NCBI RefSeq assembly: GCF_000189635.1
Contig: NW_002476570.1
Coordinates: 744,001 to 808,000 of the forward strand
Source: Tetrahymena thermophila SB210
Taxonomy: Eukaryota > Ciliophora > Oligohymenophorea > Hymenostomatida > Tetrahymenidae
Length of the DNA: 64,000 bases
Direction of reading: 5' to 3'
The position numbers and the translations under genes were made by a program. The notes beneath the pieces were generated by a model. It saw nothing but the letters and a program-made list of their open reading frames with translations. It was not told the DNA's origin and made no database searches. The first letter of the stretch is position 1. The number at the start of each line of letters is the position of its first letter. Shown here piece after piece: positions 1 to 53,529 of the stretch.

Positions 1-3000
1 GGCATTCATATTCTAAACTTTGAAAGCTTTCACAATACTTCCATTTAAAAAGTTGGTCATAAAAACATTTCCAACAATATCTAATGAAATAAAGATGTTA
101 GTATATTTTGTAAACAAAAATAAATTAATGATTTCATTATTTTAGTTCTAAGAAAGGTTTTGTACAATCTTAATTTTCGATAAATCTGGATTGTAGCTCC
201 ATATAATAATTTATCCTGCTTTATCATAAGATAAAATAATATTTTATTATTACATAAATTACACACCATTTACTCCCTTTGAATGTCCAACAAGTGATTG
301 ACTTTAATCTGTATTGTAATTCCATGCCTAGAGATTATTTGAAATATCATAATTATAAGAAATAATTAATTGAATGTCCTCTATAATTAGTGCATCAACG
401 ATACTCTTCTTATGAACTCTGGTATTTTACCTAATTGAATAAAATAAAATAAATCCTAATAAGTAAATTCTCTTGAAATCTAAATTACTTGTATATTGTG
501 TAGCTGAAGTAATCATAAATAGTAATTATATTTGACAATGAAACAAGCTTTTATTGAGAATTTATTAATAGTAGCTTCTATAACACAGAGTTTTCGTTTC
601 TTTATATGTAATAGTAAGTGTCTGGAGTAAAGTGGCTAAGCATGATATCTCCTACTGTATTTGAGATAAATATCCTTTAATTTTTTGAATCAGTATCGAA
701 TGCAGTAATTGCAGATCTAGAATCAAATTAATATTAAGCTAACTATGTTAGAGAATCTGCAATTATTAATATTCCTCCATATGAACCTACATCAATAGTT
801 AATATGACTTTATTATATTAAGGAATAATATTCGATATTGTAATAGGAAATTAGATAGCTTAAATTTTAGAATAAAAAGGCTAAGCAATTCCATGAGTAG
901 TTATACTTCCATCTTAGTTCAAGCAACTGTAATATAAGTAAATATTTCCTTCCTATATTATACCACACTATTTTTATAAAATAAATCAATATGGGTCTTA
1001 AAAAATCTTTAAAAATTTAAATAAATATAAGTTATCAAAGATTGTTTAAATATATTCTGTATAAAAACTAAATCTTCGATGAATGTATTTTTTTACATAT
1101 TTTAAAAAATTAATATAATTAAAAAAAAGTGGATAAATGCTTTTTATGAAAAGGCATGGAAAATTAATTTATTTAAAAAAATTTTTTTCATTTTGATTTT
1201 AAAATGAACCATTTTTTTTCAATTTATAAAAAATAATTTTTACCTTGTTAATTTGAACATTATCGTTAGAAATTTGTATTACATTTAGTTATTCATCGTA
1301 TAATATAGCTAATCCATTTCGGAAATAAAATATTGAGTAACCATCTTGGCTTGCTCCAAAAGCAAATCCTACAATCTTATCTTAGTTTTTATTAATACTA
1401 GAAGTATCAGTTTATACTTTTATTGTTAATTCAGGATAATTATATCTAATAATATATCCATTCTCTGACACAGTAGGTAAATTTAAATTAGAGTATAAGG
1501 CAAGATAATAAAACTATCCTGGATTATTAATAGTATTAATAATCTTAGAATTTAAAGGGTCTATTATTTATAAGTAATTTAAACTGTTAATTAAAACAAA
1601 TCCATTAATATCATCACTGTATAAAGTTAATATTTTTTCATAAAAAATTTATTTAAAGTAAACAATCATATTAATAGCATGATAGCAAACAATAGATTAA
1701 TCATTATATGCAACACATACAAATAAACCTTTTGATAAGCATAAAGTTATCCCTTATGGTTATTTTATGCTTAGTTTATAATCAGGATGCCAAAATATGG
1801 ATAAAACTTAGCCAGTTAACAAATCATAGCTTAATGACATACCATCTGACGATGTGCTAGCAAAGATATTCTGAGAGTATTCATAGACCGTCATAGGTAC
1901 AGACTAAGTTTAGCGAATAAATGGAATAGGTAAATTGGTTATTATGTAGCTAACACCTTGGCTTTTTAAATTAATTTACTGAATTGAAGATCCAAAGATG
2001 TAAATCTGATTACTTTACTCATCAATTATAGCTCCTTATATATTTTGCATATTAATTTAAATAGGAGTAAAATTTTAAGTCTAAATTATTTGTTAAGACT
2101 AAATAGTACTCTGGTTATTAACATAGCTAGACATAGAAAACTTTCCAAATTAAGTATATAAAACAATACTATTATTTTTAATATATATGCCTTATAGTGG
2201 GGAAAATAACATTTAATTAAAAAACTATTCGCTTATTTTTTGTAATTAAATGAAGTTGTTTGTATCAGAATTAAATCCATAAATTAAAACTTCTGCAGAA
2301 GAATAAACTATCACTGATTAGGAGCTTGAGTCTCCTAAAACGTTTAATATTGGCTAGGTAAAATCGCCTTAAAATTATAATTTGCACTAAGTAGAGATAG
2401 ATTGCAAATTCGAAATAGACAGATTTAGTGAATCACTACCTGAGCTTCCAAATGAAAAAAGATAACTTTGTTACCCGGAACTTGAGCTAAAATTTAGTAG
2501 AGTAAAACCAGCTGGTGTAGAATCATGTAGACATGTTATTTAAAAACTGTAAGTAGAAGTAGATTCGCTCCATAATATGATTGATTTATCTAAAGAATAT
2601 GTGATAAAACTAGATGGGCTAATTATTATTGAATTTAAAACAATATTTGTATGTCCTACATACTTTTTATATGTTTTATTTTACATATTGTAGATATAAA
2701 ACTCTCCTTAGTATCCATACAAAGTTATCAAGTCATACACCATATTAACACAACTCAGATTTGTTAGCTATCCAAAATTTACAATTTATTACTTATTCAA
2801 AACTCCAGTAGAATAATTCCAATAAAATATTTCACCATTTGAGGAAAAAGATAGAAGCTGATTAGAATCTTGAAGTAGATAGATCTTCAAAACAGGCTAG
2901 GTGTGACCAGAAAAAGTGGTTTTAAGAATTCCATTTACTGAATTCCACAACTTGATATTTGTGTCTGTATTACTAATACTAATAATGATTTAATTTGTGT

Positions 3001-3340
3001 CATCTACTATTATTTATGAAGCTAATCCAGAATGGAAATCTTAGCCTAAATCAACAAGAATAGGGCATTACTGTATTTGCTAACAAACGCCTTGATCAGG
3101 ATAGCCAAATTCATTTTATTTGCAAGATGGTACACATTATTAGGAATCACTTTCTAAGTATAAATTCTAATCACAATCGGAAATACATAACCCATTGGAT
3201 TGATTTAGTGTGAAATTTTGATTACATTAGATACAGGAGCCATCATTAGGAGATAAATTTTTGCAAAAAAGGTCTGCGCCTTTAATAAAATGTGATAATA
3301 AAACGATTTATAATAAGTTTAATAAAATTCGATAATTCAT
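1..3340 (-). CDS. Array copy A: giant beta-propeller/beta-helix membrane protein, 5' part only
   Basis: This is the amino-terminal part of the fourth array member; the rest lies beyond the left window edge. Reading with TAA/TAG as Gln gives exon 1 at 3340-1244 (699 codons), intron 1 at 968-1243, exon 2 at 967-489, intron 2 at 431-488, and exon 3 from 430 off the edge. The start at 3340 gives a signal peptide (MNYRILLNLLQIVLLSHF...) followed by a Cys-rich head with CxxC pairs (CIQC, CISDC). Then come WD40-like blades with GH...W spacing, for example FSGHTQPVLKI and YVGHTNIVLNS, and a further propeller in exons 2-3 (LVGHSKGVNGVQF, IIIWSYNP). Exon 1 is 2,097 nt, exactly as in B and C. The function is unknown; the predicted location is the secretory pathway or cell surface. 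Exon phases agree with B, C and D, so this part looks intact. Confidence 0.85.
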
Positions 3341-6810: not shown

Positions 6811-9800
6811 TCACATATCTTAAAGATCTAAATTAAATATTTCACTGTTCTTTTTTGTTTTAAACTAATAATTTTGGTGAAGCTCTTTTCTTCCTATTTG
6901 TTTCTTTTTCACTCTGTCAGTAAATATTTATTATGCACTATCTTCTTATTTAACATGATTTGCTTTTTTAAATTTTAAATAGTTAAAATAAAAATGTTTA
7001 AAAATTTTTACTATTTAATCTATTTGTATTTAAAGTTAAGGTATGTTCATTTTCAAATATAGTTTATGTGTATTCGCTTTCATCCTTTTTCCTTTCATCG
7101 TATTGTGAAATTACTTTTATTTTGATAAAAAAACTAATTTATATAATCAATAAAATTTTAATTTTTACATTTAAAGGCGCTAGCTCCTCTTTTTGGTAGT
7201 TTTACAGAGTTTAGTTAAGTATTAGGACTTTAGTTTTAGCTTACAGAGTGTTTCTTCTAGAGTTTGCTAAAAAATATAGATGAATTTCTAACCTAAGTGG
7301 CACTATCTGGCATTTATAAGTGATTTCGTTTTAATAAATGAGTACCAATCAAATTAATAGCTTTTGCCCAATTTTTAAATGTCCTCATTTTATTAAATGA
7401 ATTAATTCCTAGCCTCAAATATAAATGCTTAAAGTTAGATTTAAATATTGGATATTTTTCTCCAAAAATGAAAAGAAACCTTTTCACTTTACCTAATAAA
7501 ACTTATATTATTAAGAAGCTGGAAAATAAGTAATGTAGAGCATAAAGCAAAAATGAGCAAATCTAAAACTATATGTCGTTTTCTGATGTGTTTACTAAAA
7601 GATTCAATTAAAGACAGATAATCAGTGTAATACATAAGTATTAATCTGTACGATTAAAATTTACATTTATGTAAGGAGCTTTAAAAATAGAAAGCATTAA
7701 GTAGCAAAACAAAATCATTGTGCAAAGAGTGTTTTTAAATTAAATTTGCTAACTATAAAAGTTACTGATAAATATGATTATTAATTTAAGGTTTATCTTT
7801 ACAAATTCCCAATAATATGTTTGCTTCTTATATTCTGAGTATAGTAAACCGTATGATAGCCTAACTGAGCAATAGTTAAGAATTCTAACTTTCTTCTTTA
7901 GTACAATAATCCCAATAAAAGGAATTATTATTGCCCATATCAAAAATAAAGGTAAAAATAAGATTAATATATAAGAGTAGTATTCCATAGTATAGCATTT
8001 TAAAGTAACATCTGCAGTTAGATACTAAATTCCTCCAATATCTCTACAAGATATAATCTGAACTAGCCCAGAGATAATGTTAGGTTATAAAAATAAAAAT
8101 ATAAAAATTAAGCCTGTAACAATTAAGCTCTTTTCAAATCTCTTAAAATATTTAGCCAGATACAAGAAATAGTAAATAGTAGTTAGCAACAGGAAATAGC
8201 TTACTGATATTATCTATGACCAAATGATTCTACCATATGCATGAGGTAAAAATTCTTCAGTAAAAATACTTCTGCAATCGGCAGAAAATTTCAAAAAATC
8301 AATTGGGGTACCAATTCCTAATGACATTATGTTCAAAAACTAAGGCTGGTAAATCTGATAAGCTATTGAACTAATTTAAATAAAATGCATATAAAATTTT
8401 AAATAAATGTCAGATTTATCAGTTGATTCACTGTTTCCAATACTTGCTAGTCCAACCATTCTAAGATAATAACTCTAGGCTTTTATTAAAGTCATCTGGC
8501 GAGCTGCTTTAACTCCAAATATAATATATAAACATCCTACAATCAATGAAGAAAAATATATGTATGCCTAGCTTGATGAATCTCTACATGGGATACACTC
8601 ATACAGCTATTTATTCATGTATTTTTGTTTCCATACTTTACCATTTAAATCGCAAGTTTCACAAAGTGGACCTATATATCCTTATCTGCAATTTTAAATA
8701 CTATCAGTACTTTCACCTTAGCAATTATCTGGATTATGAACACAACTTACAATATTATCTGTATTATTATTTTCTCTCCAATAACCATTCTTTAATATAA
8801 GCTTGTTCCCTTAGCAATAAGAACAAGAATCTGGACAAAGTTTGCAAGTTTATTCACTTTAAGAGTTAGGATCTGGAGTTATTAATGAATATTTCTGTAT
8901 TGGACACAATTCGCAGTATGATGGAGTATTTTAAGTGCTATTGTAGATAAATTAATTAATTAATTAAATAAAAAATATCATTTTTAATACCTTTTAATTA
9001 TGATTTCACCAACTAAGCACTAACGAAAGTTAACATTTAATTTAACTTATAGGGGTGCCAATAAAAATTATGTTGTGTTTTAAGGATTAGGAATTTAAAT
9101 AATATTATTTTAAATGTAAAATTCTGAAGAAGTCTATGGATTTGATATGAGCTAAATATTTTAAAATGTGAATGAAATATCAGTTTAGTTATATGACGCT
9201 TTATTACCATTGATTTACATAATTTTAGGGTTTAAAGAAATACATTCTAATTAATATTACTGAAATTCGCTTTAAAGTTCTTGACTACTTTATTCAAGTT
9301 AATTCAGATTAACAACCCCATTTTCTTCATCATATATTTTTATATTGAAATTTAAATTACCACCGCTCATAAAATTATCTATCTGGTATACAATTAAACT
9401 CTATGTTTCTTTTTTTATAAAAAACAATTTGTTTTTAAATATTTTATTTGTATATTAAAAAAAATTCAAGTTATTATTTTCTTCATAAATGAAAAAAAAA
9501 AAAAATTAAAAAATAATAAAGCAATCATTTGACTATGTAGATAATCTTAAAATAAATGTTTGGTTCTAATTAAAAAAAGTCTAAAATTTTTTTGAAATTT
9601 TTTAATTTAATTATTAATCATTTATTTTTGATATTTAAAAATTTCATTATTATATTTTTTTAATTTTACATGAAATAAATTTAAAAGCCACTCCTTCATT
9701 CATGTTGGTAATTTAAATGTTTCTGGGATATGAACCTATATTTTGGCCAAATATCTTAGCTTAATTATTTTCAATTTTGTTTTGACTCAAGCTATTAACT

Positions 9801-12800
9801 AGATACTACTCTTTTGTTATAAAACCTGGTATTAAATTTAAATACCTTATTGCTCCACCAACTTGAGCATTATTTTAACTAATTATTGTTTTTATTATTT
9901 CAAGATTTGAGGAGTATAAGTATATTGATCCTCCTTAGCTTGCAATATTGGATTAAAAGCTTGATTCTTAAATTATATTAATTTAAGGACTGTCTTTTAT
10001 GCTAATTGCTCCACCATATTCTGATTATAAATACATAAAAACACATTTAGTGAATTAAAACCTTGTTTAATATATGTCAAATGCACAACCATATGAATTC
10101 AAGCATGTGTTGTTGAAAAATGATGACTAATTTAGTTCAAAATAGCTTGTTTATATTCTATTTAAGGCTTATCCTTGTACACTAGTACAATAACTAACTA
10201 CAACATCTTAAAACCTTATAGTATCATTAACAACTTATATATAACCTACACCTTGCATGAGGTATGTTTAAGAAATATCAAAAATCATTAAGTTCTAGTT
10301 GTTATAGGCATTTAAATTTATTGAAGATATATTTTTATTCGCATTCATGTAAAAGACAATAAATTAAGATATTTTTAAACCTTGAGAAATATTATTATTT
10401 AAAGTAATATTAGTTGTACAATTCTGAATAGTAACTGAATTAATTTAAATGCTCTAGCTATTTTATATTGAAAATAAAGTACTCCAAATATTTTATTACC
10501 CATTTTAAGAATAATATCTCACATTTTATATGGTTAAATTCTAAATAACTATTTTTTAAACTTGAGAAATCTAGAAAAGAGAAATAGAATTTTCAATTGT
10601 CAAATTTATCAGATTCAGGTTTTTTATAAAAATAGTATTACTATTTGTTACTTAGAATAAGCTACTATTCTGACTTTATTAAAATTATAATGCTCTCTAC
10701 TAATTTTGTCCTATTTAACTAAGCTATAAGTTTATAATTTCCATATTATCAATCATCAATGAATTTATTGAATTAATTATAAACTAACTACCAACAATAT
10801 TATCTTAGAATGTAGAATTAACAAAAATAATATTTTAGGTGTTTTTATTAAAGTTGTAAGTTGTTTGATTTTCTATCTTCCAATTAAAATTTTTAATTGT
10901 CAAAGTAGGCATATTAAACTATTCAAAAGAAGATATTGCCAAATTAATTCTGTTTTTTTGCGATTACTATTTTTTATCATATACATAAAATTACTAAGTG
11001 CTTGATGTACCTCCAAGGTTGATGCTTTTTTAGACAAAAAAAAAGGGTTGTTCATCATCCATTTGAATATTTAGGACAATATTATTTATTGATTGAGAGA
11101 CTTTCTAAAAGGAAGTACTTTGGGTTGAGAGATCCTAACTAAGTTAAAAGTAAGATGAAGTCCTTTGAAGATTTGAGTAGCATTAAGAATAATCTGTATG
11201 TGTTGGGTCACTAGAGTATGGGAATGTATAATTAAATACAGTGAATAAATTTATTCCTTTTAAATTAATTATTAGCTGATCGGTATAACTTAAAGATAAT
11301 AATGTTGGAAATTGCATTGAGAAAGATTTTTGTATGGCTATTTAACTGTATGAAAAAGATACTAAGTTAAGTTGAGCCTTAGATCTAATAAGAAGTAAAG
11401 ACTAAGAAATGAATTAGAGATCTGTTATGTTGTATATCTAAGAAGGCATTCTAAGAGAGTTTATGATAGCATCATTTGCATTTCTATCATGTAGATTTAC
11501 TTAAAATTAATTGAAAATAGCTAAAATATTCCATTATTAACTTAATTTCATTTGTACTTGATAATCTCCAGGTCCATAAATATATTTAATTAAATCTAAA
11601 TTCGTAGAATTAAGATTTCTGACTTAAATAGCTAATTATAAATCAGTCCATATCAAAATTTATTGTCTTGGAGCATCAATTAATGCCTGAACAACAGAAG
11701 ATTTTTACTATAGTAAATATAAAACACTTAGAGGAGCATCTTTATCATAAGAAAAGACAATCGAAGTTTAATCTTAAGAACAAGTTATCAATCTTTTATA
11801 TTAAAAAATATTTAGCAATAATTCAATAAATTACTTAAATTTTATATTAAAAAAATAAAATTTGTTAAAAATACCTTTTAAATTCAAAATCAATTTGTAA
11901 ATCTCTAATGATTTGCTTATTCTATTAAGGAACTAACACAGATTTAAAAGTGTTATAATTATTAATAGCAAGATATCCTGTAACATCAAAAGTAATTATA
12001 TGAGAATAAATTGTATTTATAATGCAATTTATTATTCTACTACTATGATTACTGTAAATATTAACAAATGTTAGACCTGAATTGGTTGTATTTATTAATA
12101 ACTAGATTATTTAATAACTATAAGTCTACACAAAAATGAATGGAATGGTCTCATCCAAATAAATGCTAAAGGGGTATATTTATAATTAACTTGTTAATTT
12201 AAAATTGGAGTCATAGCTATATAAATTTATTCCATCAGTTACCAAATGAGTATCAGTGTGCAAAATAATCTATTTTGGTTAATATTAAAGTTAAAACTTA
12301 TAGTATAGTTAGTTTTAGCTAGCCTACCAAATATTCTAGTTTAAATCAGCGTATGTTACAACATCTAAGATAAAAATAATAAAAATATTTAAATAAAACA
12401 TATATTTTTTTAATTAAAATATTAAAAATTTATTTTTAATTGGATTAATTTGAAAGGAAAATTAATTTAAATTACCTTGTCTTGAATGATAAGTTGACAT
12501 TATCAATGATTCAGAAGGTATTATAACAGCTTAACCTTAGAAGCCTACATATGCATAATATTGCCATGCTATAATCGTATCATCATTGCAAACGATTAGA
12601 ATATTGCTATAAAAATCAAAGACATAGCTCTTTATGTATGAACTCGTCATTTGAGCAAACAAGAAGTCTTTTTGTTAAACGTAAGAATTGAAATAAGGTG
12701 TTACAGTAAATAAATATCTGTCGACATTCTATACAATAAACAGCTAAGATTACTCATCATGAAATATACTCACTAAATTTTAAGGATATGATTGATTTTT

Positions 12801-15800
12801 AATTTCTGAAAGCATAACACCACTTGTATAGTCCCAAACTTCAATTGAGCTATCAATATTATTTCCTACCATACCAACAAAATTAATTAAAACTGTCAAA
12901 GAGTAAATATTTTTTTTAAATTAACTTGCAAATAAAACAACTAAAGTATCACGAGAAATTGATTAAATATTTACAGTTCCATATGCTATTATATAATTGT
13001 TCTTAAATATTACTTGTTAAACTTAATTATCAAAACCAATTATTTCTTACACCTTAACCCCTGTTATTGCACTATAAACTTCAATGCTGCTTCCATATAA
13101 AAATATTCTATCATATAATTCATCGATAATCATGGCATTCATATTCTAAACTTTGAAAACTTTCACAATACTTCCATTTAAAAAGTTGGTCATAAAAACA
13201 TTTCCAACAATATCTAATGAAATAAAGAGATTTGTATATTTTGTAAACAAAAATAAATTAGTGATTTCATTATTTTAGTTTTAAGAAAGGTTTTATAGAA
13301 TCTTAATCTTCGATAAATCTGGATTGTAGCTCCAAATAATAATTTATCCTGCTTTGTCATAAGATAAAATAATATTTTATTATTACATAAATTACACGCC
13401 ATTTATTCCCTTTGAATGTCCAATAAGTGATTGACTTTAATCTGTTTTAAAATTCCATGCTTAAAGATTATTTGAGATATCATAATTATAAGAAATAATT
13501 AATTGAATGTCCTCTATTATTAGTGCATCAATGATACTCTACTTATGAACTCTGGTATTTTACCTAATTAAATTAAATAAATCCTAATAAGTAAATAATC
13601 TTGAAATCTAAATTACTTGTATACTGTCTAGCTGAAGTAATCATATATAGTAATTATATTAGACAATGAAACAAGCATTTATTAAGATTTTATTAATAGT
13701 AGCTTCTATAAAATAGATATTTCGTTTCTTTATATGTAATAATAAGTGTTTGGAGTAAAGTGGCTGAGCATAATATCTCCTATTGTATTTGTGATAAATA
13801 CCCTTTAATTATATTAATCGATATCAAATGCATTAATTTTAGATCTAGAACCAAATTAAGATTAAGCTAACTATGTTATAGTATCTGCAAATACTAATAA
13901 TCCTCCATATGAACCTCCATCAATGGTAAATATTACTTTATTATATTAAGGAACAACATCCGAATATGTTATAGGAAATTAGATAACTTAAATTTTAGAA
14001 TAAAAAGGCTAAACAATTCCATGAGAAATTACAGTTCCATCTTAATTCAAGCAACTGTAATATAAGTAAATATTTCCTTCTTATACTATACCACACTATT
14101 TTTATAAAATAAATCAATATGGGTAATAAAAAATCTTTAAAAATATAATATATTCAAAAAAAAATTTTATTTTTTTTTATTAAAATAAAATAATAAATTA
14201 ATTTATTTATTTATTTACCCTGTTAATTTGAACATTATCGTTAGAACTTTGTATTACATTAAGTTATTCATCGTATAATATAGCTAAACCATTTTAGAAA
14301 TAAAATATTGAGTAACCCTCTTCGCTTGCTCCAAAAGCTAATCCTACAATCTTATCTTAGTTTTTATTAATACTAGAAGAATCAGTTTATATTTTTATTG
14401 TTAATTCAGGGTAATTATATCTAATAATATATCCATTTTCTGACGCAGTAGGGCAATTTAAATTAGAATATAAGATAACATAGTAAAACTAACCTGGATT
14501 ATTAATAGTATTAATTATCTTAGAATTGAAGGGGTCTATTATTTATAAGTAATTTAAACTATTAATTAAAACAAATCCATTAATGTTATCATTGTATAAC
14601 CTTAATATTTTTTCATAAAAAATTTATTTAAAGTAAACAATCATATTAATGGCATGATAGCAAACAATAGATTAATCATTATATGCGACACATAGCAAAA
14701 CACCTTTTACTAAGCATAAAGTAATCCCTTATGGCTATTTTATGCTTAGTTTATAATCAGGATGCTAAAATATGGATAATAATTAGCCAGTTAAAAAATC
14801 ATAGCTTAATGACAAACCATCTGAAGAGGTGCTTGCAAAGATATTCTGAGAGTAGTCATAGACTGTCTTAGGTACAGACTAAGTTTAGCGAATAAATGGA
14901 ATAGGTAAATTGGTTATTATGTAGCTAACACTTTGGCTTTTTAAATTAATTTACTGAATTGAGGATCCAAATATATAAATCTGATTACTTTATTCATCAA
15001 TTATAACTCCTTAAATATTGCGCATATTAATTTAAATAGGAGTAAAATTTTAAGTCTAAATTATTTATTATGACTAAATAGTGCTCGGGTTATTAATAAA
15101 GCTAGATATAGAAAACATTCCAAATTAAGTGTATAAAACAATACTGTTTTCATAAATATATATGCCTTATAGTGGCAAAAAAAGTTTTTAATTAAAAAAC
15201 TACTCGCTTATTTTTTGTAATTAAATGAAATCGTTTGTATTTGAATTAAATCCATAAATTACAACTTCTGCAGAAGAATATACTATCACTGATTAAGAGC
15301 TTGAATCTCCTATAGCGTTTAATATCGGCTAGGTAAAATCGCCTTAAAAATATTATTTACATTAAGTAGAGGTAGATTGTAAATTCGAAATAGATAATTC
15401 TAGTGAATCACTACCTGAGCTTCCAAATGAAAAAAGATAACTTTAATACCCAGAACTTGAGCTAAAATTTAGTAGAGTAAAACCAGCTGGTGTAGAATCA
15501 TGATTGCATGTTATTAAAAAATTGTAAGTAGAAGTAGATTCGCTCCACAATATAACTGATTTATCTAAAGAATATGTGATAAAGCTCGATGGGCTAATTA
15601 TTATTGAATTTAAAACAATATTTGTATGTCCTACATACTTTTTATATGTTTTATTTTACATATTGTAGATGTAAAACTCTCCTTAGTATCCATACAAAGT
15701 TATCAAGCCATACATCATATTAACAGAACTCAGATTTGTTAGTTATCCAAAATTTACAATTTACTACTTATTCAAAACTCCAGTAGAATAATTCCAATAG

Positions 15801-16315
15801 AATATTTCACCATTTGAGGAAAAAGATAGAAGCTCATTAGAATCTTGAAGTAGATAGATCTTCAAAACAGGCTAGGTGTGACCAGAAAAAGTGGTTTTAA
15901 GAATTCCATTTACTGAATTCCACAACTTGATATTTGTGTCTGTATTACTAATACTAATAATGATTTAATTTGTGTCATCTATTATTATTTATGAAGCCAA
16001 TCCAGAATGGAAATCTTAGCCTAAATCAACAAGAATAGGGCATTGATATATTTGTTAACAAACGCCTTGATCAGGATAGCCAAATTCATTTTATTTGCAA
16101 GATGGTACACATTATTAGGAATCATTTTCTAAATATAAATTCTAATCACAATCAGAAATACATAGTCCGTTGGATTGATTTAGTGTGAAATTTTGATTAC
16201 ATTAAATACATGAGCCATCATTAGGTGAGACATTTTTGCAAAAAAGGTCTCTGCCTTTAATAAGTTGTGTTAAAAAAAAAAATTATAGTAATTTTAATAA
16301 AATTCGATAATTCAT
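6811..16315 (-). CDS. Array copy B: giant WD40-like/beta-helix/EGF-like multi-TM membrane protein (2,905 aa)
   Basis: Exons are 16315-14219, 14095-13617, 13563-12476, 12364-11875, 11792-9670, 9408-8991, 8937-7169, 7113-7012 and 6962-6811; phases agree at every join and the stop is TGA. Residues 1-25 are a signal peptide, then a Cys-rich head. Residues about 90-1,220 are WD40-like propeller blades. Residues about 1,700-2,090 are a beta-helix with N-rich rungs and turns YGGAISI, QGGSIYL and VGGAIRY. Residues 2,232-2,350 form an EGF-like Cys cluster (CRQGYIGPLCETCD). About eight membrane spans follow at 2,352-2,713, with the motif YGLLYSEYK...YYWEFVKI between spans 4 and 5. The cytosolic tail carries QEDSAQQIFTDRVKKK. 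It is likely a surface receptor or adhesion protein; ligand and role are unknown. The closest copy is C. The YYWE-type membrane region resembles those of large beta-helix membrane proteins in other protists. Confidence 0.88.
14096..14218 (-). other. Intron 1 of copy B
   Basis: The splice sites are ATTAACAGG/GTAAAT and AAAATAG/TGTGG. The corresponding introns are 276 nt in A, 123 nt here, 317 nt in C and 155 nt in D, whereas the flanking exons keep their length. This contrast is the clearest evidence for the splice model. The other seven introns of B are 13564-13616, 12365-12475, 11793-11874, 9409-9669, 8938-8990, 7114-7168 and 6963-7011. Confidence 0.85.
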
Positions 16316-18680: not shown

Positions 18681-21600
18681 TCACATATCTTAAAGATCTA
18701 AATTAAATATTTCACTGTTCTTTTTTGTTTTAAACTAATAATTTTGGTGAAGCTCTTTTCTTCCTATTTGTTTCTTTTTCACTCTGTCAGTAAATATTTA
18801 TTATGCACTATCTTCTTATTTAACATGATTTACTTTTTTAAATTATAAATAGTTAAAATAAAAATATTTTAATAATTTTACTATTTAATCTATTTGTATT
18901 TAAAGTTAAAGTATTTTCATTTTCAAATATAGTTTATGTGTATTCACTTTCATCCTTTTTCCTCTCATCGTATTGTGAAATTACTTTTATTTTGATAAAA
19001 AAATTAATTTATATAATCAATTAAATTTTAATTTTTACGTTTAAATGCGCTAACTCTACTTTTTGGTATTTTTATTGAAGTTAGTTAAGTGTTAGGACTT
19101 TAGTTTTAGCTTACAGAGTTTTTTCTCTAGATTTTGCTAAAAAATATTGATGAATTTCTAACCTAACTGGCAGTATCTGGAATTAATAAGTGGTTTCGTT
19201 TTAACAAATGAGTGCCAATCAAATTAATAGCTTTTGCCCAATTTTTAAATGTCCTCATTTTATTAAATGAATTAATTCCTAGCCTCGAATATAGAAACTT
19301 AAAGTTAGATTTAAATATTGGATATTTTTCTCCAAAAATGAAAAGAAATCTCTTCATTTTACCTAATACAACTTATATTATTAGGAAGCTTGAAAATATG
19401 TAATGCAGAGCATAAAGCAAAAATGAGCAAATCTAAAACGATATGTCGTTTTCAGATGTGTTTACTAAAAGATTCAATTAAAGACAGATAATCAGTGTAA
19501 TACATAAGTATTAATCTGTACGATTAAAATTTACATTTATGTAAGGAGCTTTAAAAATAGAAAGCATTAAGTAGCAAAACAAAATCATTGTGCAAAGGGT
19601 GTTTTTAAATTAAATTTGCTAACTATAAAAGTTACTGATAAATATGATTATTAATTTAAGGTTTATCTTTACAAATTCCCAATAATATGTTTGCTTCTTA
19701 TATTCTGAGTATAGTAAACCGTATGATAGCCTAACTGAGCAATAGTTAAGAATTCTAACTTTCTTCTTTAGTACAATAATCCCAATTAAAGGAATTATTA
19801 TTGCCCATATCAAAAAAAAAGGTAAAAATAAGATTAATATATAAGAGTAGTATTCCATAGTGTAGCATTTTAAAGTAACATCTGCAGTTAGATACTAAAT
19901 TCCTCCAATATCTCTACAAGATATAATCTGAACAAGCCCAGAAATGATATTAGGCTATAAAAATAAAAATATAAAAATTAAGCCTGTAACAATTAAGCTC
20001 TTTTCAAATCTCTTAAAATATTTAGCCAGATACAAGATATAGTAAATAGTAGTTAGCAACAGGAAATAGCTTACTGATATTATCTATGACCAAATGATTC
20101 TACCATATGCATGAGGTAAAAATTCTTCAGTAAAAACACTTCTACAATCAGCAGAAAATTTCAAAAAATCAATTGGGGTACCAATTCCTAATTAAAATAT
20201 TTTCAAAAACTAAGGCTGATAAATCTGATAAGCTATTGAACTAATTTGAATAAAATGCATATAAAATTTTAAATAAATGTCAGATTTATCAGTTGATTCG
20301 CTGTTCCCAATACTTGCTAATCCAACCATTCTGAGGTAATAACTCTAGGCTTTTATTAAAGTCATCTAGCGAGCTGCTCTAACTCCAAATATAATATATA
20401 AACATCCTACAAATAATGAAGAGAAATATATGTATGCCTAACTTGATGAATCTCTGCATGGGATACACTCATATAGCTATTTGTTCATGTATTTTTGTTT
20501 CCACACTTTACCATTTAAATCGCAAGTTTCACAAAGTGGACCTATATATCCTTATTTGCAATTTTAAATACTATCAGTACTTTCACCTTAGCAATTATCT
20601 GGGTTATGAACACAATTTACAATATTATCTGTATTATTATTTTCTCTCCAATAACCATTCTTTAATACAAGTTTGTTCCCTTAGCAATAAGAACAAGAAT
20701 CTGGACAAAGTTTGCAAGTTTATTCACTTTATGAGTTAGGATCTGGAGTTATTAATGAATATTTCTGTATTGGACACAATTCGCAGTATGATGGAGTATT
20801 TTAAGTGCTATTGTAGATAAATTAATTAATCAAGTAAAAAATATAATTTTTAATACCTTTTAATTATGATTTCACCAACTTAGCACTAACGAAAGTTAAC
20901 ATTTAATTTAACTTATAGAGGTACCAATAAAAATTATGTTGCGTTTTAAGGATTAGGAATTTAAATAATATTATTTTAAATGTAAAATTCTGAAGAAGTC
21001 TATGGATTTGATATGAGCTAAATACTTTAAAATGTGAATGAAATATCAGTTTAGTTATATGACGCTTTATTACCATTGATTTACATAATTTTAGGGTTTA
21101 AAGAAATACATTCTAATTAGTATTACTGAAATTCCTTTTAAAGTTCTTGACTACTTTATTCAAGTTAATTCAGATTAACAACCCCATTTTCTTCATCATA
21201 TATTTTTATATTGAAATTTAAATTACCACCGCTCATAAAATTATCTATTTGGTATACAATTAAACTCTAAGTTTCTTTTTTTATAAAAAACAATTTATTT
21301 TTAAATATTTTATTTATTAATTAATTAAAATAAATTTAAGTTATTATTCTCTTCATTTAATAAAATAAAAAAAAATAAATTAAAATAATAAAGCAATCAT
21401 TTATAACAAAGAGGAAAATCTTTTTATAAATTTTTGGCTCTATTAAAAAAAGTTTATATTTTTTTCAAATTTTTTAATTTTATAATAAATCATTTATTTT
21501 TGATACTCTCAAAATTAAAAATTTAATTACTATATTTTTTAAATTTTACATTAAATAACATTAAAAGCCACTCCTTCATTCGCACTGGTGCTAGTAATTT

Positions 21601-24600
21601 AAATGCTACTGGGATATGAACCTATATTTTGGCCAAATATCTTAGCTTAATTATTTTCAATTTTATTTTGATTAAAGCTATTAACTAAATACTACTATTT
21701 TGTTATAAAACCTGGTATTAAATTTAAATACCTTATTGCTCCACCAATTTGGGCATTATTTTAACTAATTATTGTTTTTATTATTTCAAGATTTGAGGAG
21801 TATAAGTATATTGATCCTCCTTAGCTTGCAATATTGTATTAAAAGCTTGATTCTTAAATTATATTAATTTAAGGACTGTCTTTTATACTAATTGCTCCAC
21901 CATATTCTGATTATAAATACATAAAAACACATTTAGTGAATTAAAACCTTGTTTAATATATGTCAAATGCACAACCATATGAATTCAAGCATTTATTATA
22001 TAAAAATGATGATTAATTTAGTTCAAAATAGCTGGTTTATATTCTATTTAAGGCTTATCCTTCCACACTAGTACAATAACTAACTACAACATCTTAAAAC
22101 CTTATAGTATCATTAACAACTTATATATAACCTACACCTTGCATGAGGTATGTTTAAGAAATATCAAAAATCATTAAGTCCTAGTTGTTATTGGCATTTA
22201 AATTTATTGAAGATATATTTTTATTCGCATTCATGTAAAAGACAATAAATTAAGATATTTTTAAACCTTGAGAAATATCAGTTTTACAATTCTGAATAAT
22301 AACTGAATTAATTTAAATGCTCTAGCTATTTTATATTGAAAATAAAGTACTCCAAATATTTTATTACCCATTTTAAGAATAATATCTCACATTTTATATG
22401 GTTAAATTCTAAATAACTATTTTTTAAACTTGAGAAATCTAGAAAAGAGAAATAGAATTTTCAATTGTCAAATTTATCAGATTCAGGTTTTTTATAAAAA
22501 TAGTATTACTATTTGTTACTTAGAATAAGCTACTATTCTGACTTTATTAAAATTATAATGCTCTCTACTAATTTTGTCCTATTTAACTAAGCTATAAGTT
22601 TATAATTTCCATATTATCAATCATCAATGAATTTATTGAATTAATTATAAACTAACTACCAACAATATTATCTTAGAATGTAGAATTAACAAAAATAATA
22701 TTCTAGGTGTTTTTATTAAAGTTGTAAGTTGTTTGATTTTCTATCTTCCAATTAAAATTTTTAATTGTCAAAGTAGGCATATTAAACTATTCAAAAGAAG
22801 ATATTGTCAAATTAATTCTGTTTTTTTGCGATTACTATTTTTTATCATATACATAAAATTATTAAGTGCTTGATGTACCTCCAAGGTTGATGCTTTTTTA
22901 GACAAAAAAAAAGGGTTGTTCATCATCCATTTGAATATTTAGGACAATATTATTTATTGGTTGAGATACTTTCTAAAAGGAAGTACTTTGGGTTGAGAGA
23001 TCCTAACTAAGTTAAAAGTAAGATGATGTCCTTTGAAGATTTGAGTAGCATTAAGAGTAATCAGTATGAGTTGGATCACTTGAGTATGGGAATGTATAGT
23101 TAAATACAGTGAATAAATTTATTCCTTTTAAATTAATTATTAACTGATTGGTATAACTTAAAGATAATAATGTAGGAAATTGCATAGAAAAAGATTTTTG
23201 TATGGCTATTTAACTGTAAGAAAAAGATACTAAGTTAAGTTGAGCCTTAGATCTAATAAGAAGTAAAGACTAAGAAATGAATTAGAGATCGGTTATGTTG
23301 TATATCTAAGAAGGCATTCTAAGAGAGTTTATGATAGCATCATTTGCATTTCTATCATGTAGATTTACTTAAAATTAATTGAAAATAGCTAAAATATTCC
23401 ATTATTAACTTAATTTCATTTGTACTTGATAATCTCCAGGTCCATAAATATATTTAATTAAGTCTAAATTCGTAGAGTTAAGATTTCTAACCTAAATAGC
23501 TAATTATAAATCAGTCCATATCAAAATTTATTGTCTTGGAGCATCAATTAATGCCTGAACAACAGAAGATTTTTACTATAGTAAATATAAAACGCTTAGA
23601 GGAGCATCTTTATCATAAGAAAAGACAATCGAAGTTTAATCTTAAGAACAAGTTATCAATCTTTTATATTAAAAAATATTTAGCAATAATTCAATAAATT
23701 ACTTAAATTTTATATTAAAAATAAAATTTGTTAAAAATACCTTTTAAATTCAAAATCAATTTGTAAATCTCTAATGATTTGCTTATTCTATTAAGGAACT
23801 AACACAGATTTAAAAGTGTTATAATTATTAATAGCAAGATATCCTGTAACATCAAAAGTAATTATATGAGAATAAATTGTATTTATAATGCAATTTACAA
23901 TTCTACTACTATGATTACTGTAAATATTAACAAATGTTAGACCTGAGTTGGTTGTATTTATTAATAACTAGATTATTTAATAACTATAAGTCTACACAAA
24001 AATAAATGGAATGGTCTCATCCAAATAAATACTAAATGGATATATTTATAATTAACTTGTTAATTTAAAATTGGAATCATAGCTATATAAATTTATTCCA
24101 TCAGTTACCAAATGAGTGTCTATGTGTAAAATAATCTACTTTGGTTAATATTAAAGTTACAACTTATAGTATAGTTAGTTTTAGCTAGCCTACCAAATAT
24201 TCTAGTTTAAATCAGCATATGTAATGACATCTAACATAAATATTTTAATAAAAATATTAAAAATATTTAAATAAAACATATATTTTTTTAATTAAAATAT
24301 TAAAAATTTAGTTTTAATTAAATTAATTTGAAAGTAAAATTAATTTAAATTACCTTGTCTTGAATGATAAGTTGACATTATCAATGATTCAGAAGGTATT
24401 ATAACAGCTTAACCTTAGAATCCTACATATGCATAATATTACCATACTATAATAGTATCATCATTGCAAACGATTAGAATATTGCTATAAAAATCAAAGA
24501 CATAGCTCTTTATGTATGAACTAGTCATTTGAGCTAACAAGAAATCTTTTTGTTGAATGTAAGAATTGAAATAAGGTGTTACAGTAAATAAATATCTGTT

Positions 24601-27600
24601 CACATTCTATACAATAAACAGCTAAGATTGTTCATCATGAAATATACTTACTAAATTTTAAGGATATGTTGGATTTTTTATTTCTGAAAGCATAACACCA
24701 CTTGTATAGTCCCATACTTCAATTGAGCTATCAATATTATTTCCTACCATACCAACAAAATTAATTAAAACTGTCAAAGAGTATATATTTTTTTTAAACT
24801 AACTTGCAAATAAAACAACTAAAGTATCACGAGAAATTGATTAAATATTTACAGTTCCATATGCTATTATATAATTGTTCTTAAATATTACTTATTAAAC
24901 TTAATTATCAAAACCAATTATTTCTTACATCTTAACCCCTGTTATTGCACTATAAACTTCAATACTGCTTCCATATAAAAATATTCTATCGTATAATTCA
25001 TCAATAATCATGGCATTCATATTCGAAACTTTGAAAGCTTTCACAATACTTCCATTTAAAAAGTTGGTCATAAAAACATTTCCAACAATATCTAATGAAA
25101 TAAATAGATTTGTATATTTTGTAAATAAAAATAAATTAGTGATTTCATTATTTTAGTTTTAAGAAAGGTTTTGTAGAATCTTAATCTTCGATAAATCTGG
25201 ATTGTAGCTCCAAATAATAATCTATCCTGCTTTGTCATAAGATAAAATACTATTTTACTATTATATAAATTACACACCATTTATTCCATTTGAATGTCCA
25301 ACAAGTGATTGACTTTAATCTGTATTGTAATTCCATGCCTAGAGATTATTTGAAATATCATAATTATAAGAAATAATTAATTGAATATCCTCTATTATTA
25401 GAGCACTAACTATACTTTACTTATGAACTCTGGTATTTTACCTAATTAAATTAAATAAATCCTAATAAGTAAATAATCTTGAAATCTAAATTACTTGTAT
25501 ACTGTCTAGCTGAAGTAATCATAAATAGTAATTATATTAGACAACGAAACAAGCTTTTATTAAGATTTAATTAATAGCAGCTTCTATAAAACAGAGTTTT
25601 CGCTTCTTTATATGTAATAATAAGTGTTTGGAGTAAAGTGACTAACCATGATATCTCCTACTGTATTTGAGATAAATACCCTTTAATTATATTAATCGAT
25701 ATCGAATGCATTAATTGCAGATCTGGAACCAAATTAAGACTAACCTAGCTATGTTATGGAATCTGCAAATATTAATGATCCTCCATATGAACCTACGTCA
25801 ATGGTAAATATAGCTTTATTGTATTAGGGAATAACTTCACAAGATGTTATAGGAAATTAGATAACTTAAATTTTAGAATAAAAAGGCTAAACAATTCCAT
25901 GAGTAATTATAGTTCCATCTTAATTCAAGCAACTGTAATATAAGTAAATATTTCCTTCTTATACTATACCACACTATTTTTATAAAATAAATTAGTATGG
26001 ATTGTAAAAAATCTTTAAAATGTTATATATATAAGAAAAAATTTTAGCCACTTAATCCAAAAATTTGAAAAAAAGAACAAATTAAAAACTTTATCTAAAT
26101 TATTTAGATAATAAAGAGTGAGCAATCATAAAAAATAAAAAATATGGTGGATTTATATGTTTAAACATATGATACCTAGTATTTGTTATTAATTAGGGGA
26201 TCATATTTTTAAAAATTATTTCTAGCTAAATAAAAAATTTTTAAACCATTTTTTTTATTTTATTTAATTTAATATATTTATTTTTTTTACCCTGTTGATA
26301 TGAACATTATCGTTAGAACTTTGTATTACATTTAGCTATTCATCATATAATATAGCTAATCCTTTTTGGAAATAAAATACTGAGTAACCTTCTTCGCTTA
26401 CTCCAAAAGCAAATCCTACAATCTTATCTTAGTTTTTGTTAATACTAGAAGAGTCAGTTTATAATTTTATTGTTAATTCAGGGTAATTATATCTAATAAT
26501 ATATCCGCTCTCTGATACAGTAGGGCAATTAAAATTAGAATATAAGTTAATATAATAAAACTAACCTGGATTATTTATAGTATTAATTATCTTAGAATTG
26601 AAAGGGTCTATTATTTATAAGTAATTTAAACTATTAATTAAAACAAATCCATTAATGTCATCATTGTATAACCTTAATATTTTTTCATAGAAAATTTATT
26701 TAAAGTAAACAATCATATTAATGGCATGATAGCAAACAATAGATTAATCATTATATGCAACACATAGCAATAAACCTTTTACTAAGCATAAAGTTATCCC
26801 TTATGGCTATTTTATGCTTAGTTTATAATCAGGATGCTAAAATATGGATAATAATTAGCCAGTTAAAAAATCATAGCTTAATGACAAACCATCTGAAGAT
26901 GTGCTTGCAAAGATATTCTGAGAGTATTCATAGACTGTCTTAGGTACAGACTAAGTTTAGCGAATAAATGGAATAGGTAAATTGGTTATTATGTAGTTAA
27001 TGCTTTGACTTTTTAAGTTAATTTATTGAATAGAAGGTCCAAATATATAAATCTAATTACTTTATTCATCAATAACGACTCCTTATATGTTGTGCATATT
27101 AATTTAAATAGGAGTAAAATTTTAAGTCTAAATTATTTATTATGACTAAATAGTACTCTGGTTATTAATATAGCTAGACATAGAAAATTTCCCAAATTAA
27201 GTGTATAAAACAATACTGTTTTCATAAATAAATATGCCTTATAGTGGGGAAAATAGTTTCTAATTAAAAAACTATTCGTTTATTTTTTGTAATTAAATGA
27301 AATCGTTTGTATTTGAATTAAATCCATAAATTACAACTTCTGCAGAAGAATATACTATCACTGATTAAGAACTTGAATCACTTATAACATTTAATATTGG
27401 CTAGGTAAAATCTCCTTAAAAATATTATTTGCAGTAAGTAGAGGTAGATTGTAAATTCGAAATAGAGAGATCCAGTGAATCACTACCTGAGCTTCCAAAT
27501 GAAAAAAGATAACTTTGATACCCAGAACTTGAGCTAAAATTTAGTAGAGTAAAACCAGCTGGTATAGAATCATGTAGGCATGTTATTTAAAAATTGTAAG

Positions 27601-28387
27601 TAGAAGTAGATTCACTCCACAATATGATTGTTTTATCTAAAGAATATGTGATAAAATTAGATGGGCTAATTATTATTGAATTTAAAACAATATTTGTATG
27701 TCCTACATACTTTTTATATGTTTTATTTTACATATTGTAGATGTAAAACTCTCCTTAATATCCATACAAAGTTATCAAGCCATACGCCATATTAACACAA
27801 CTCAGATTTGTTAGCTATCCAAAATTAACAATTTACTACTTATTCAAAACTCCAGTAGAATAATTCCAATAGAATATTTCACCATTTGAGGAAAAAGATA
27901 GAAGCTCATTAGAATCTTGAAGTAGATAGATCTTCAAAATAGGCTAGGTGTGACCAGAAAAAGTGGTTTTAAGAATTCCATTTACTGAATTCCACAACTT
28001 GATATTTGTGTCTGTATTGCTAATACTAATAATGATTTAATTTGTGTCATCTACTATTATTTATGAAGCTAATCCAGAATGGAAATCTTAGCCTAAATCA
28101 ACAAGAATAGGGCATTGATATATTTGTTAACAAACGCCTTGATCAGGATAGCCAAATTCATTTTATTTGCAAGATGGTACACATTATTAGGAATCATTTT
28201 CTAAATATAAATTCTAATCACAATCAGAAATACATAATCCATTGGATTGATTTAGTCTGAAATTTTGATTACATTAGATACATGAGCCATCATTAGGTGA
28301 GACATTTTTACAAAAAAGGTCTGTGCCTTTAATAAAATGTGATAACAAAAAGATTTATAATAAGTTTAATAAAATTCGATAATTCAT
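18681..28387 (-). CDS. Array copy C: giant WD40-like/beta-helix/EGF-like multi-TM membrane protein (2,901 aa)
   Basis: Exons are 28387-26291, 25973-25495, 25441-24354, 24230-23741, 23660-21550, 21274-20857, 20807-19039, 18983-18882 and 18832-18681. Eight of nine exons have exactly the same length as in B. Exon 5 is 12 nt shorter, from an 18-nt deletion near 22,277 and a 6-nt insertion near 21,586, both in frame. The signal peptide, Cys-rich head, propeller blades, GGA(I/S) beta-helix turns, EGF-like cluster, membrane spans and tail motif are all as in B, and many stretches are nearly identical. No in-frame TGA was met at the segments and joins I translated, but I did not read every codon. Role unknown; the relation to B suggests a recent duplication or continued conversion. 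Confidence 0.87.
25974..26290 (-). other. Intron 1 of copy C, enlarged, with two palindromes
   Basis: At 317 nt this is the longest version of this intron. The extra sequence carries two palindromes: TTATCTAAATTATTTAGATAA (26,091-26,111) and ATATGTTTAAACATAT (26,155-26,170). They are absent from intron 1 of B. This may be a small insertion, but I see no clear target-site duplication. The other introns of C are 25442-25494, 24231-24353, 23661-23740, 21275-21549, 20808-20856, 18984-19038 and 18833-18881. Confidence 0.65.
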
Positions 28388-29878: not shown

Positions 29879-32800
29879 TCATTATTTGACATCATCTAAA
29901 ATTTCTTAATTAAATATTTATTATTTATTTTAATTTGTTTTAAAAAAGTAAATTTAGTTTATTTCGTTATTTCTAATATATTTCTTTTTAATTCTTTATG
30001 AAAATATTTGTTAAGCACTCTCTTCTTATCTAGGATTGTTTGCTTTTTATATATGTTTCAATTTTTAAGACATAAAATTGTTAATAATATTTTACCATTT
30101 ATGTAAGTAGCTGATGCTTCTTAGTCTGTAATACTAGAAGTATATTAACTGTCATCTTTTTTCTTATCTTCATAGTTTTACGACATTACTTTTATATAAA
30201 AAAACATTATACCAAATAAAATTAATAAAAATTAACTTACATCTAAGTTTAATCACCTATTTTTTTGGTTATTTTTAAGGTGTTAACTAGATATTTAATA
30301 TTCCTGACTAGATTATAGGACTTGAATTTTAGTATATTTTACTTGAGTGTTTATTAAAATATTTATTTAAATTTGTAAACTGTTCCGAATTCTATTTAGA
30401 TTTAATTAAATTCCTTTCATAAAAGTAAATTGAAAGCAATCTAATCAATTTTGCCCAATTTTTAAATGTATTCATTTTATTCTTAGATTTTATTCCTAAC
30501 CTTTCAAATATATAACTGAAATTAGATTTTACTGATGGATATTTTTCTCCTATTAAAAAAATAACTTTTTTTATTTTAACAATGAGAATTTATATTATCA
30601 GAAAGCTTGAAAATAAGTAATAAATCCCATAAAGCAAAAATGAGCATATCTATAACTGAATATCATTTTCAGATTTATTTACAAGTAGATTCAATTAAAG
30701 ACAGATAATCAGCGTTATACATAAAAACTAATCAGTACGATTAAAATTAACATTTATGTAGGGAGCATTAGAGATTTAAAGCATCAAATAGCAAAAAAGT
30801 ACAAAAGTACAAATAGTATTTTTGTACTAGATTTGTTGGTTGTAAAAGTTGCAGATAAAAATGATTATTAATTTAAGATTTATTTTCACAAACTCCCAAT
30901 AATATTTTTCTTTCCTATATTCTGAATATAGCAAACCATAAGATAACCTTACAGAGCAATAATCAAGAATTTTAACTTTCTTCTTTAATACAATAATCCC
31001 TATTAGTGGAAGTAATATTGCCCATATTAAAAAAAGAGGCAAAAATAATAACAAGAAATATAAATAGTATTGCATTGTATAACATTTCAAAGTTACATCT
31101 GCAGTCAGATACTTAGTTCCTCCAATATCTCTACAAGATATGATTTGTACCAATTCAGAGATTATGCTCGGTTACAAATATAAATAGATAAATATTGCTA
31201 CTGTGATGATTAAGTTCTTTTCAAATTTCTTAAAAAACTTAATCAAAAATAAGAGATAATATATAGTGACCAAAAAGAAAAAATAGCTTATTGATAATAT
31301 TTATGACCAGATAATTCTACCATATGCATGAGGTAAAAGTTCTTAAGTAAAGATGCTTCTACAGTCTATAGAAAATTTTAAAAAATTAATCGGTGAGCCT
31401 ACACTAACCTAGATTATTTTCAAAAACTAGGGTTAATATATCTAAAAAGCTATTGAACTAACTTAAATAAAGTGCATATAAAATTTTAAGTATATGTCAG
31501 ATTTATCTGATTATTCACTATTTCCTATACTTGCTAACCCAATCATTCTTAAGTAGTAGCTTTATATCTTAATCAAAATCATTTAACGAGCTGCCCTAAC
31601 ACAAAATAAAATGTATAAACATCCTATGATTACTGAAGACAGATATGTATATAATTAACTATATGAATCTTAGCATGGGATGCACTCAAATTTTTCCTTG
31701 TTCATATATTTTTATTGCCAAATTTTGCCATAAAAATCACAAGTTTCACAAAGTGGGCCTATATATCCCTTCTTACAATATTAAATGGTTTCTGCGCTTT
31801 GACCTAGACAGTTATCTGGATTATTTACACAACTTACAATAACATCTGTATAATTATTTTCCCTCCAGTAGCCATTCTTTAGAGTAAGAGTTTTGCCTTA
31901 ACAATAAGAGCAAGAATCTGGACAAAGTTTACAGAGTTACTCATTTTAAGAGTTAATATTAGGAGTTACCAAAGAGTATTTTTGTATTGGACATTTTTCA
32001 CAATATGAAGGATTATTTTATGTACTATATTATTTGTTATATGAAATAAAAAATATTTAATTTTATTTATAATTAAATATACCTCTTGATTATGATTTCA
32101 CCCATTTCACATTAACGAAAGTTCACGTTTAATTTAATATACAATGGTTTTAATTAAAATTATGTTGTGTTTTAAGGATTGGGAATTTAAATTATATTAT
32201 TTTAAATATAAAATACAGATTAAGTCTCAGGAGTTGATATAAGCTAAATGTTTTAAAATGTAAATGAATTGTCTAATGAGTTGTAAATTGCTTTATTACC
32301 ATTTATTAACATCATTTAAGAATTTAAAGAAATACATTCTAATTAATATTATTATAACTCACTTTAAAGCTCCTTACTACTTTCTTCTAATGAATTTAGA
32401 TTAACTATGTTATTTTCTTCGTCGTATACTTTTATTTTGAAATTTAAATTACCTCCACTCATAAAATTATCTATCTAATACACTGTCTCACCCTAAATTT
32501 CTATAATTTAAATGATATTAAAAAAATATAGAAAATTTTGATAATTAACAAAAATTAAAATAAATAATTTAAAATTTTTAATAGCTATAATGTTTAAAAT
32601 TTTACATTAAATAAGATTGAAATCTATTTCTTAATCCGTTCTTTCAATTTCTATTTGCCTTGGGTATGAACCAATATTTTAACCAAATATTTTTGCTTGA
32701 TTTTTTACAATATTGTTTTTGCTTAAATTGTTACTTAGATACTGCTTTTTAGTTATAAAATCTGGCACAAAACCTACATATCTTATAGCTCCACCTACTT

Positions 32801-38800: not shown

Positions 38801-39315
38801 AATATTTCACCTTTAGAGGAAAAAGACAGCAGCTAATTAGAGTCCTAAAGCAAATAAATCTTCAAAACAGGTTAGGTATGACCAGAAAAAGTCATTTTAA
38901 GTATTCCATTTACTTAATTCCACAACTTGATATTTGTGTCTGTGTTACTAATACTAATAATAATTTGATTTATATCATCTACAATTATTTATGAAGCCAA
39001 TCCAGAATGGAAATCTTAACCCAAATCAATAAGCGTAGGACATTCATAAATTTTCTAGCAGACACCTAAATCAGAATTGCCATATTCATTATAATTGCAA
39101 GATGGTACACATTATTAAGAATCTGCTTCTAAAAAAAAATTCTTATCACAATCAGAGATGCACAGCCCTTGAGATTTATCTAGTGAGAAATTTAAATTGC
39201 ATAAAATGCATGAACCATCTTTAGGAGAGATAATTTAGCAATTAGGATCAATGCATTTTACAAAATGTGATAAAATGAGGATTTTCAAAAGTATAAAAAT
39301 AATATGAGAAATCAT
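29879..39315 (-). CDS. Array copy D: divergent member of the giant membrane protein family (2,911 aa)
   Basis: Exons are 39315-37222, 37066-36585, 36527-35440, 35345-34856, 34728-32606, 32500-32083, 32024-30241, 30188-30096 and 30042-29879, with the same eight introns and phases as B and C. Exon length differences are 3, 3, 15, 9 and 12 nt, so all net changes keep the frame. The start gives MISHIIFILLKILILSHF as signal peptide, then a Cys-rich head (CILC, CISDC). It has the same propeller, beta-helix, EGF-like and multi-TM order; the membrane motif reads YGLLYSEYRKEKYYWEFVKI. The tail motif QEESAQQIFSQRIKKK is conserved while the residues around it have drifted. D is clearly the outgroup of the array. 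Conservation of structure together with drift of sequence argues for a working gene. Function unknown. Confidence 0.87.

Positions 39316-53488: not shown

Positions 53489-53529
<41 letters not shown>

Follow-up and report, generated by a model that had tools for sequence, protein, structure and literature searches.

Can a single gene place WD40-type propellers behind a signal peptide and then run on through a beta-helix into a set of membrane segments? This question is raised by a locus in the window, by which we mean the whole stretch of 64,000 nucleotides analysed (C10:744001-808000; the genome searched comprises 101,022,631 bases on 445 contigs), where an initial annotation saw an unusual composite of just this kind. 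WD40 propellers outside the cell would be unusual. No description of the full domain order was found among the titles and abstracts listed from literature other than subscription journals and preprints, and the available parts of PMC12029339 and PMC12223298 hold nothing on this layout. The seven main domains that PMC6564038 names for species-specific genes of Tetrahymena include WD40 and GFR Cys-rich ones, so that expanding families with such domains are already known in general.

Read with translation table 11, the 64-kb window holds no closed open reading frame of at least 250 aa; read with table 6, it holds 42. The genome carries a ciliate telomerase RNA, RF00025 being matched end to end (E = 7.9e-29), and is that of a ciliate. 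Genes were modelled under the ciliate code with a finder that uses codon usage and GT-AG introns and was trained on copy A, the gene under study. The first models, all on the minus strand, had 7 exons in copies A and B and 8 in copy C, plus the start of a copy Z. Comparison of the 3′ ends of A, B, Z and C yielded two more small introns and moved the stop of copy A to 6811. Copy A is now predicted to encode 2,905 aa (about 331 kDa at 0.114 kDa per residue) in 9 exons, with predicted splice sites and with the two 3′ introns positioned via the copy comparison; the ends first proposed, 6811 and 16315, are the same to the base. The gene models are as follows.

16315..6811, minus strand: copy A, 9 exons, predicted
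16315-14219, 14095-13617, 13563-12476, 12364-11875 and 11792-9670, minus strand: copy A, exons 1-5, predicted
9408-8991, 8937-7169, 7113-7012 and 6962-6811, minus strand: copy A, exons 6-9, predicted
18681..28387, minus strand: copy B, 9 exons, 2,901 aa, predicted
29879..39315, minus strand: copy C, same order, start at 39315, stop at 29879-29881 positioned by frame comparison only
1..3340, minus strand: copy Z, first three exons, running past the window edge (its membrane exon lies outside the window at C10:738001-739842)

Within copy A the following parts are distinguished, from the N to the C terminus.

16253..16315, minus strand: signal-peptide-like N terminus, aa 1-21 (hydropathy only)
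16031..16252, minus strand: Cys-rich head, aa 22-95, 9 Cys (Cys count; profile match to the head of the relative L057, E = 9.3e-7)
15518..16030, minus strand: four consecutive WD40-type blades of 41-44 residues, aa 96-266 (borders set by hand)
14306..14878, minus strand: second WD40-matching zone, mainly aa 480-533, longest match to about aa 669 (profile against PDB)
12762..13550, minus strand: third WD40-matching zone, about aa 864-1126 (Pfam and profile matches)
10997..12362, minus strand: aa 1223-1650, between the WD40 zones and the helix, one intron, no fold identified
9671..10996, minus strand: beta-helix-like region, aa 1651-2092 (GGAI/GGSI/GGAI at 10015-9848)
8993..9670, minus strand: conserved linker domain (exon 6), aa 2093-2231, one intron (exon-6 family matches)
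8583..8992, minus strand: Cys cluster, aa 2232-2350, 13 Cys, one intron (Cys pattern, alignment)
7488..8582, minus strand: membrane module, aa 2351-2715, seven to nine hydrophobic segments (hydropathy, alignment; YYWE at 7817-7806)
6814..7487, minus strand: basic C-terminal tail, aa 2716-2905, two introns (gene model, charge)

The four copies stand in tandem. Intron phases of exons 1-7 are identical across copies A, B and C, and those of exons 1-3 also in Z. Identity between copies A and B is 91-99.7% across almost all coding windows and about 80-87% in flanks and in windows with two introns. Over aa 22-2700, dN/dS is 0.18 for A-B, 0.17 for A-C and 0.16 for B-C; it is 0.32 for A-Z, where only the N-terminal part is shared. 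Values of 0.16-0.32 indicate that the sequence is constrained as protein, i.e., that it is under purifying selection. For single domains the A-B values range from 0.05 to 0.45. Since no domain exceeds 0.45, there is no sign of a fast-changing binding face, and the idea of a fast-evolving surface antigen, which was also considered, is unsupported.

The layout is found well beyond the window. Exon 1 has 16 genome matches, which represent 13 genes on 9 contigs (C329 twice) and two short WD40-like matches on C133 and C339 that have no listed membrane module. In each of the 13 exon-1 genes, exon 1 is followed on its own strand by the membrane module, 6.7-9.1 kb further downstream as measured between match positions, and the nine genes with exon 3 all show the order exon 1, exon 3, module. 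Exon 5 was found in seven of the 13 (the four C10 copies, C329, C381 and, for its first part, C332) and exon 6 in nine; on C178 (twice), C212 and C439 the match to exon 1 is limited to the Cys head and the first blades (E = 2.4e-13 to 4.0e-9). It should be noted that the input of this order test was entered by hand and consisted of the 13 exon-1 genes, 9 exon-3 matches, 14 of 60 exon-5 and 12 of 18 exon-6 matches and 20 of about 71 membrane loci, and that one row was flagged as unordered owing to the exon 6 of a neighbour. Two more genes, L057 and L058 (both fetched in part), display, as judged by eye from their gene models, a Cys head, a long middle, a GG(A/S)I helix, an exon-6-like domain and a Cys cluster. 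The composite at first thought unusual is thus present in the order described but is not isolated: it is the layout of a gene family, seen in the 13 genes and, in the same order, in L057 and L058.

The same findings bear on a more trivial explanation, namely that a cytosolic WD40 gene has been wrongly fused to a membrane gene by the gene finder. A predicted model whose two 3′ introns were positioned by copy comparison leaves room for such an artefact. Against it stand the order, which recurs at similar spacing in 13 genes on 9 contigs, the equal intron phases of the tandem copies and the Cys head, which runs on into the WD40 zone within exon 1; we consider the artefact hardly credible.

At the N terminus, a mean KD hydropathy of at least 2.0 over 11 residues is reached by 12 of 13 family members, whose start codons were picked by eye in a manner favouring this result; L049 and L058, the starts of which were not located, are outside the 13. 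The same threshold is reached at 0 of 20 internal Met and in 22% of 1,298 open ATG frames. As sequence features, a signal-like N terminus (judged by hydropathy), a Cys head and WD40-type repeats do follow each other as first proposed. Sequons are more frequent than expected in the Cys head (4 vs 0.8 expected) and less frequent in the WD40 exons (5 vs 10.4 and 5 vs 8.3 expected); they give no support for secretion of the WD40 part.

How far does the WD40 part extend? In Pfam scans, exon 1 (copies A and C) and exon 3 (copy A) match 14 to 17 families at E ≤1, nearly all of them propeller models. All propeller matches in the window copies lie below the curated cut-offs, the best having E-values of 1.1e-9 (A) and 1.9e-10 (C), and those of exon 3 reaching up to 3.4e-6, likewise under the cut-off; the paralogous exon L040, however, passes PF00400 with 42 bits vs a cut-off of 27. 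An exon-1 profile of ten rows matches 461 distinct PDB sequences at E ≤0.001 (WDR5 at 6.5e-25), of which the best 60 are WD40-type proteins, some of them designed. With aa 270-699 alone (nine-row profile) a designed propeller is matched at 1.5e-12 and, as best natural chain, WDR5 at 1.8e-7. For exon 3 (three-row profile) the best chain that is neither highly repetitive nor designed is F-box/WD repeat protein 7 (3.1e-4), and comparison of the exon-3 with the exon-1 profile gives E = 4e-5 at a probability of 70%. The highly repetitive chain 2ymu is matched at 4.6e-48 by exon 1 and at 8.7e-23 by exon 3, but single stretches of the exon-1 profile reach 3.5e-5 against it at best and none of exon 3 passes alone. 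E-values with 2ymu sum many equal repeats, and weight is therefore placed on WDR5 and Pfam. Neither exon 2 nor exon 4 is matched in Pfam, and the exon-4 profile (aa 1223-1384) matches nothing in the PDB.

Judged by these matches, which fall into three zones and extend to about aa 1,110-1,126, the WD40-bearing stretch exceeds one head domain. A blade profile made from the family gave in round 0 four hits outside its seeds (0.0033 to 0.08), while 20 shuffles searched with it gave 3 domains below 0.01 and 13 below 0.1; rounds 1-2 were circular, new blades having joined the seed. Because the round-0 hits are near the shuffle level and the later rounds are circular, no blade count is claimed past aa 266. 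With WD40 repeat proteins the region shares a blade length of about 42 residues, the presence of GH and W(D/N) in the blades, and the profile matches to solved WD40 proteins; unlike them, it stands behind a signal-like N terminus and a Cys head and is joined to a membrane module.

The region following the WD40 zones and the stretch of aa 1223-1650 was initially called a Pmp-like beta-helix. Its turns in copy A are GGAI at aa 1978, GGSI at 2005 and GGAI at 2030, and GGA(I/S) turns are indeed shared with the chlamydial Pmp repeat (PF02415) and the right-handed beta-helix (PF13229). Within the window, Chlam_PMP is matched in copy C only, at E = 0.3 and under the cut-off; in a helix alignment of six members it is matched in four of the six at E ≤1 (best 9.2e-6), and Beta_helix in one of the six at 0.011. 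In the genome, Chlam_PMP occurs at ten places, two of which, both over the cut-off, lie in the two C178 genes, about 1 kb upstream of the membrane module. Among 14 control genomes that of E. coli also has Chlam_PMP over the cut-off, and the repeat is therefore not specific. Exon 5 has 60 genome matches, most of them confined to its last 150-200 residues. The exon-5 profile has no match in the PDB, and the helix profile has two at chance level (E = 1.5 and 1.7). From the repeat pattern and the weak family matches, a beta-helix fold is likely. The resemblance to chlamydial Pmp proteins is, however, confined to the turn repeat: Pfam scans of exons 5 to 7 matched no autotransporter barrel model, and the protein ends not in a barrel but in a Cys cluster, membrane segments and a basic tail. 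That Cys cluster, with its 13 Cys, is present as first described, the name "EGF-like" resting on the Cys pattern; in relatives the Pfam names obtained for it are weak (Ephrin_rec_like at 0.015 in L011, and NCD3G at 0.043, under the cut-off, in L057).

The membrane module has 79 genome matches with exon 7, which after hand merging of neighbouring pieces leave about 71 loci. This is a lower bound, 72 of 760 candidates having been scored. The early impression that the multi-TM part with its YYWE motif (aa 2606-2609 of copy A) resembles other large proteins is borne out in that the module is common to many genes of this genome. For an alignment of 28 rows, 30 loci were reduced by L006, L007 and L009, which are window copies, and by L013 and L016, which are fragments of a single gene; the three window copies were then added. 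Of the 14 invariant columns in this alignment seven are Cys; W376 is invariant, and Y375 and E377 are almost invariant. At a mean KD of at least 1.5, copy A shows 7 distinct segments, and the family-mean hydropathy has nine peaks above 0.9, three of these below 1.3, whence the count of seven to nine segments. In the nine-segment count the first five loops are alternately rich in K/R and provided with conserved Cys, an alternation that fits an N terminus outside.

Seven segments would also suit a GPCR-like receptor, as would the Cys cluster of L057 with its weak NCD3G match (family 3 GPCR; 0.043, under the cut-off). The nine peaks of the family mean speak against it, however, and no GPCR membrane model is among the Pfam matches of exon 7 or of the 28 members; a receptor of this type is very improbable.

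A possible relationship to TRP-like proteins is seen through relatives. The window copies have no Pfam match to PF06011, the 28 membrane modules include one that matches (6.3e-4, under the cut-off), and the membrane profile matches nothing in the PDB up to E = 10. The whole exon of L053, however, passes PF06011 with 31.2 vs a cut-off of 28.5 bits, and L053 is a family gene with the same helix end, its match to the 28-row alignment having an E-value of 3.8e-40. Of the 12 matches to PF06011 in the genome, four exceed the cut-off; none occurs in the 14 control genomes. C176 carries three of the 12, at 1.7-2.2 kb downstream from exon-5 matches, and L053 is one of these; nine of the 12 are without a listed helix or module match alongside. 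That the membrane module is TRP-like at long distance, linked via this one family gene, appears rather probable.

The predicted gene structure, the order and its conservation, the purifying selection, the WD40 matches, the distant TRP link and the loop charges fitting an N terminus outside are all read from the sequence; surface location, binding and gating are inferred. We favour giant single-chain surface receptors on a TRP-like base, a reading whose chances we see as evenly balanced. The signal peptide would send the N-terminal 2,350 residues outside the cell, where a Cys-rich cap, a chain of WD40-type propellers, the beta-helix and a Cys-rich stalk would follow each other. The stalk would join a membrane module of seven to nine segments, a distant kin of TRP-like proteins (PF06011), which would end in a basic cytosolic tail. 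Propellers and helix may bind a partner outside the cell, be it prey, another cell or a soluble cue, the stalk may pass the binding or pull on to the membrane module, and the module may act as a channel or as a signalling base. Channel activity as such is less likely than a surface receptor on a TRP-like base. If true, a TRP-like core bearing a giant ectodomain of propellers and helix would be a receptor layout whose structure is worth determining.

A signal peptide cannot separate the surface from a lumen. The protein could also belong to an internal membrane (ER, contractile vacuole or phagosome), with its propellers in the lumen, in the manner of fungal Flc-type TRP-like proteins. The PF06011 link is in line with this, PF06011 presumably being of the fungal Flc type. 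The ectodomain of the fungal PF06011 members differs from the one found here. Large Cys-rich and repeat ectodomains, like families that grow in tandem, are however more typical of surface proteins; a lumenal location is unlikely.

Another reading is that of a contact or adhesion protein, in which propellers and helix would form a long arm recognising another cell and the membrane module would only anchor the protein or join it to a complex, like the mating-type recognition complex of Tetrahymena. The nearest published object in kind, compared by description only, is MRC2 of this complex, for which the available part of PMC10901506 reports a pectin-lyase fold and eight TM helices, and a helix with a multi-pass module is common across the present gene family. 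In the same source, however, the components of the complex have 92-212 kDa as compared to about 331 kDa for copy A, and MTA, MTB and MRC1 are given five TM helices. The main text of that paper contains no occurrence of "WD40". MTA and MTB share with the family, again by description only, a large ectodomain, a furin/GFR-like Cys segment and a terminal TM exon (PMC3608545, PMC10901506), but they differ in their five TM helices, and no helix or propeller is named in those descriptions of them that the available parts of the two papers contain. A contact or adhesion protein is a less probable reading than a surface receptor on a TRP-like base, and rather unlikely, though less so than a lumenal protein.

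The distribution of the WD40 part in the wider family was set against a tree of 33 membrane modules, of which 12 were labelled WD40 (12 of the 13 genes, with one of the two on C178) and 21 other; the C178 row is 43% filled and there are four long end branches. The WD40-labelled rows are clustered, with three changes vs 10.0 in shuffles, but do not form one clade, and L020, labelled other, groups with a WD40 row. A supported clade (100/99) is formed by 16 other-labelled rows and includes L057, which is one gene with L025. In L057 and L058 WD40 has no Pfam match at E = 1, the best other match being Kelch_4 (0.062 in L057). Compared by profile with the window copies, L057 is tied by its head, as listed above, and by its helix (1.1e-11), and not by its middle. 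The position of L057 inside the other-labelled clade suggests that the common domain order probably arose before recognisable WD40 sequence was lost in that clade, as indicated by this one gene.

More tentatively, and somewhat short of an even chance, the family may represent a ciliate class of surface receptor-channels, so far unnamed, in which a TRP-like core would carry a Pmp-type beta-helix and secreted WD40 propellers. The head would diversify past WD40 recognition while the order stays fixed, giving about 71 or more sensors built on one plan.

As regards their position in the genome, the 22 clusters formed by 29 of the 79 membrane matches, those on contigs of known length, lie somewhat nearer to contig ends than under a uniform distribution (mean 0.38, P = 0.027), a weak tendency.

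Copies A and B of the tandem array of giant WD40/beta-helix/membrane genes are 95–99.7% identical between window positions ~10260 and 12060 (copy A) and the corresponding part of copy B, and dS between the two copies is only 0.048 in the beta-helix-like region and exon 6 (the conserved linker domain), with 0.09–0.17 in the remaining parts. Taken together, the high identity and the lower dS suggest a gene-conversion tract at ~10260–12060.

Twenty-two clusters of family loci lie somewhat closer to contig ends than with uniform placing (mean relative distance 0.38, P 0.027). Elsewhere in the genome, nine of the 12 TRP-like PF06011 matches lie on contigs C138 (two), C33, C311, C332 (310669), C338 (11272), C262 (1173548), C117, and C40. 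None of these has an adjoining beta-helix or membrane-module match among the matches listed, and the nine possibly form a second TRP-like group.

The tandem array is adjoined by an ion channel gene:

40335–45137, minus strand, three-exon gene model, 1,419 codons including stop

Its exon 2 matches Ion_trans_2 (7.4e-12) and Ion_trans (4.2e-11), and it has a TVGFGD-type filter, which we take to suggest a K+ channel. At window ~48000–60000, plus-strand open frames are found and GC skew is positive (0.12–0.22 per 2 kb).
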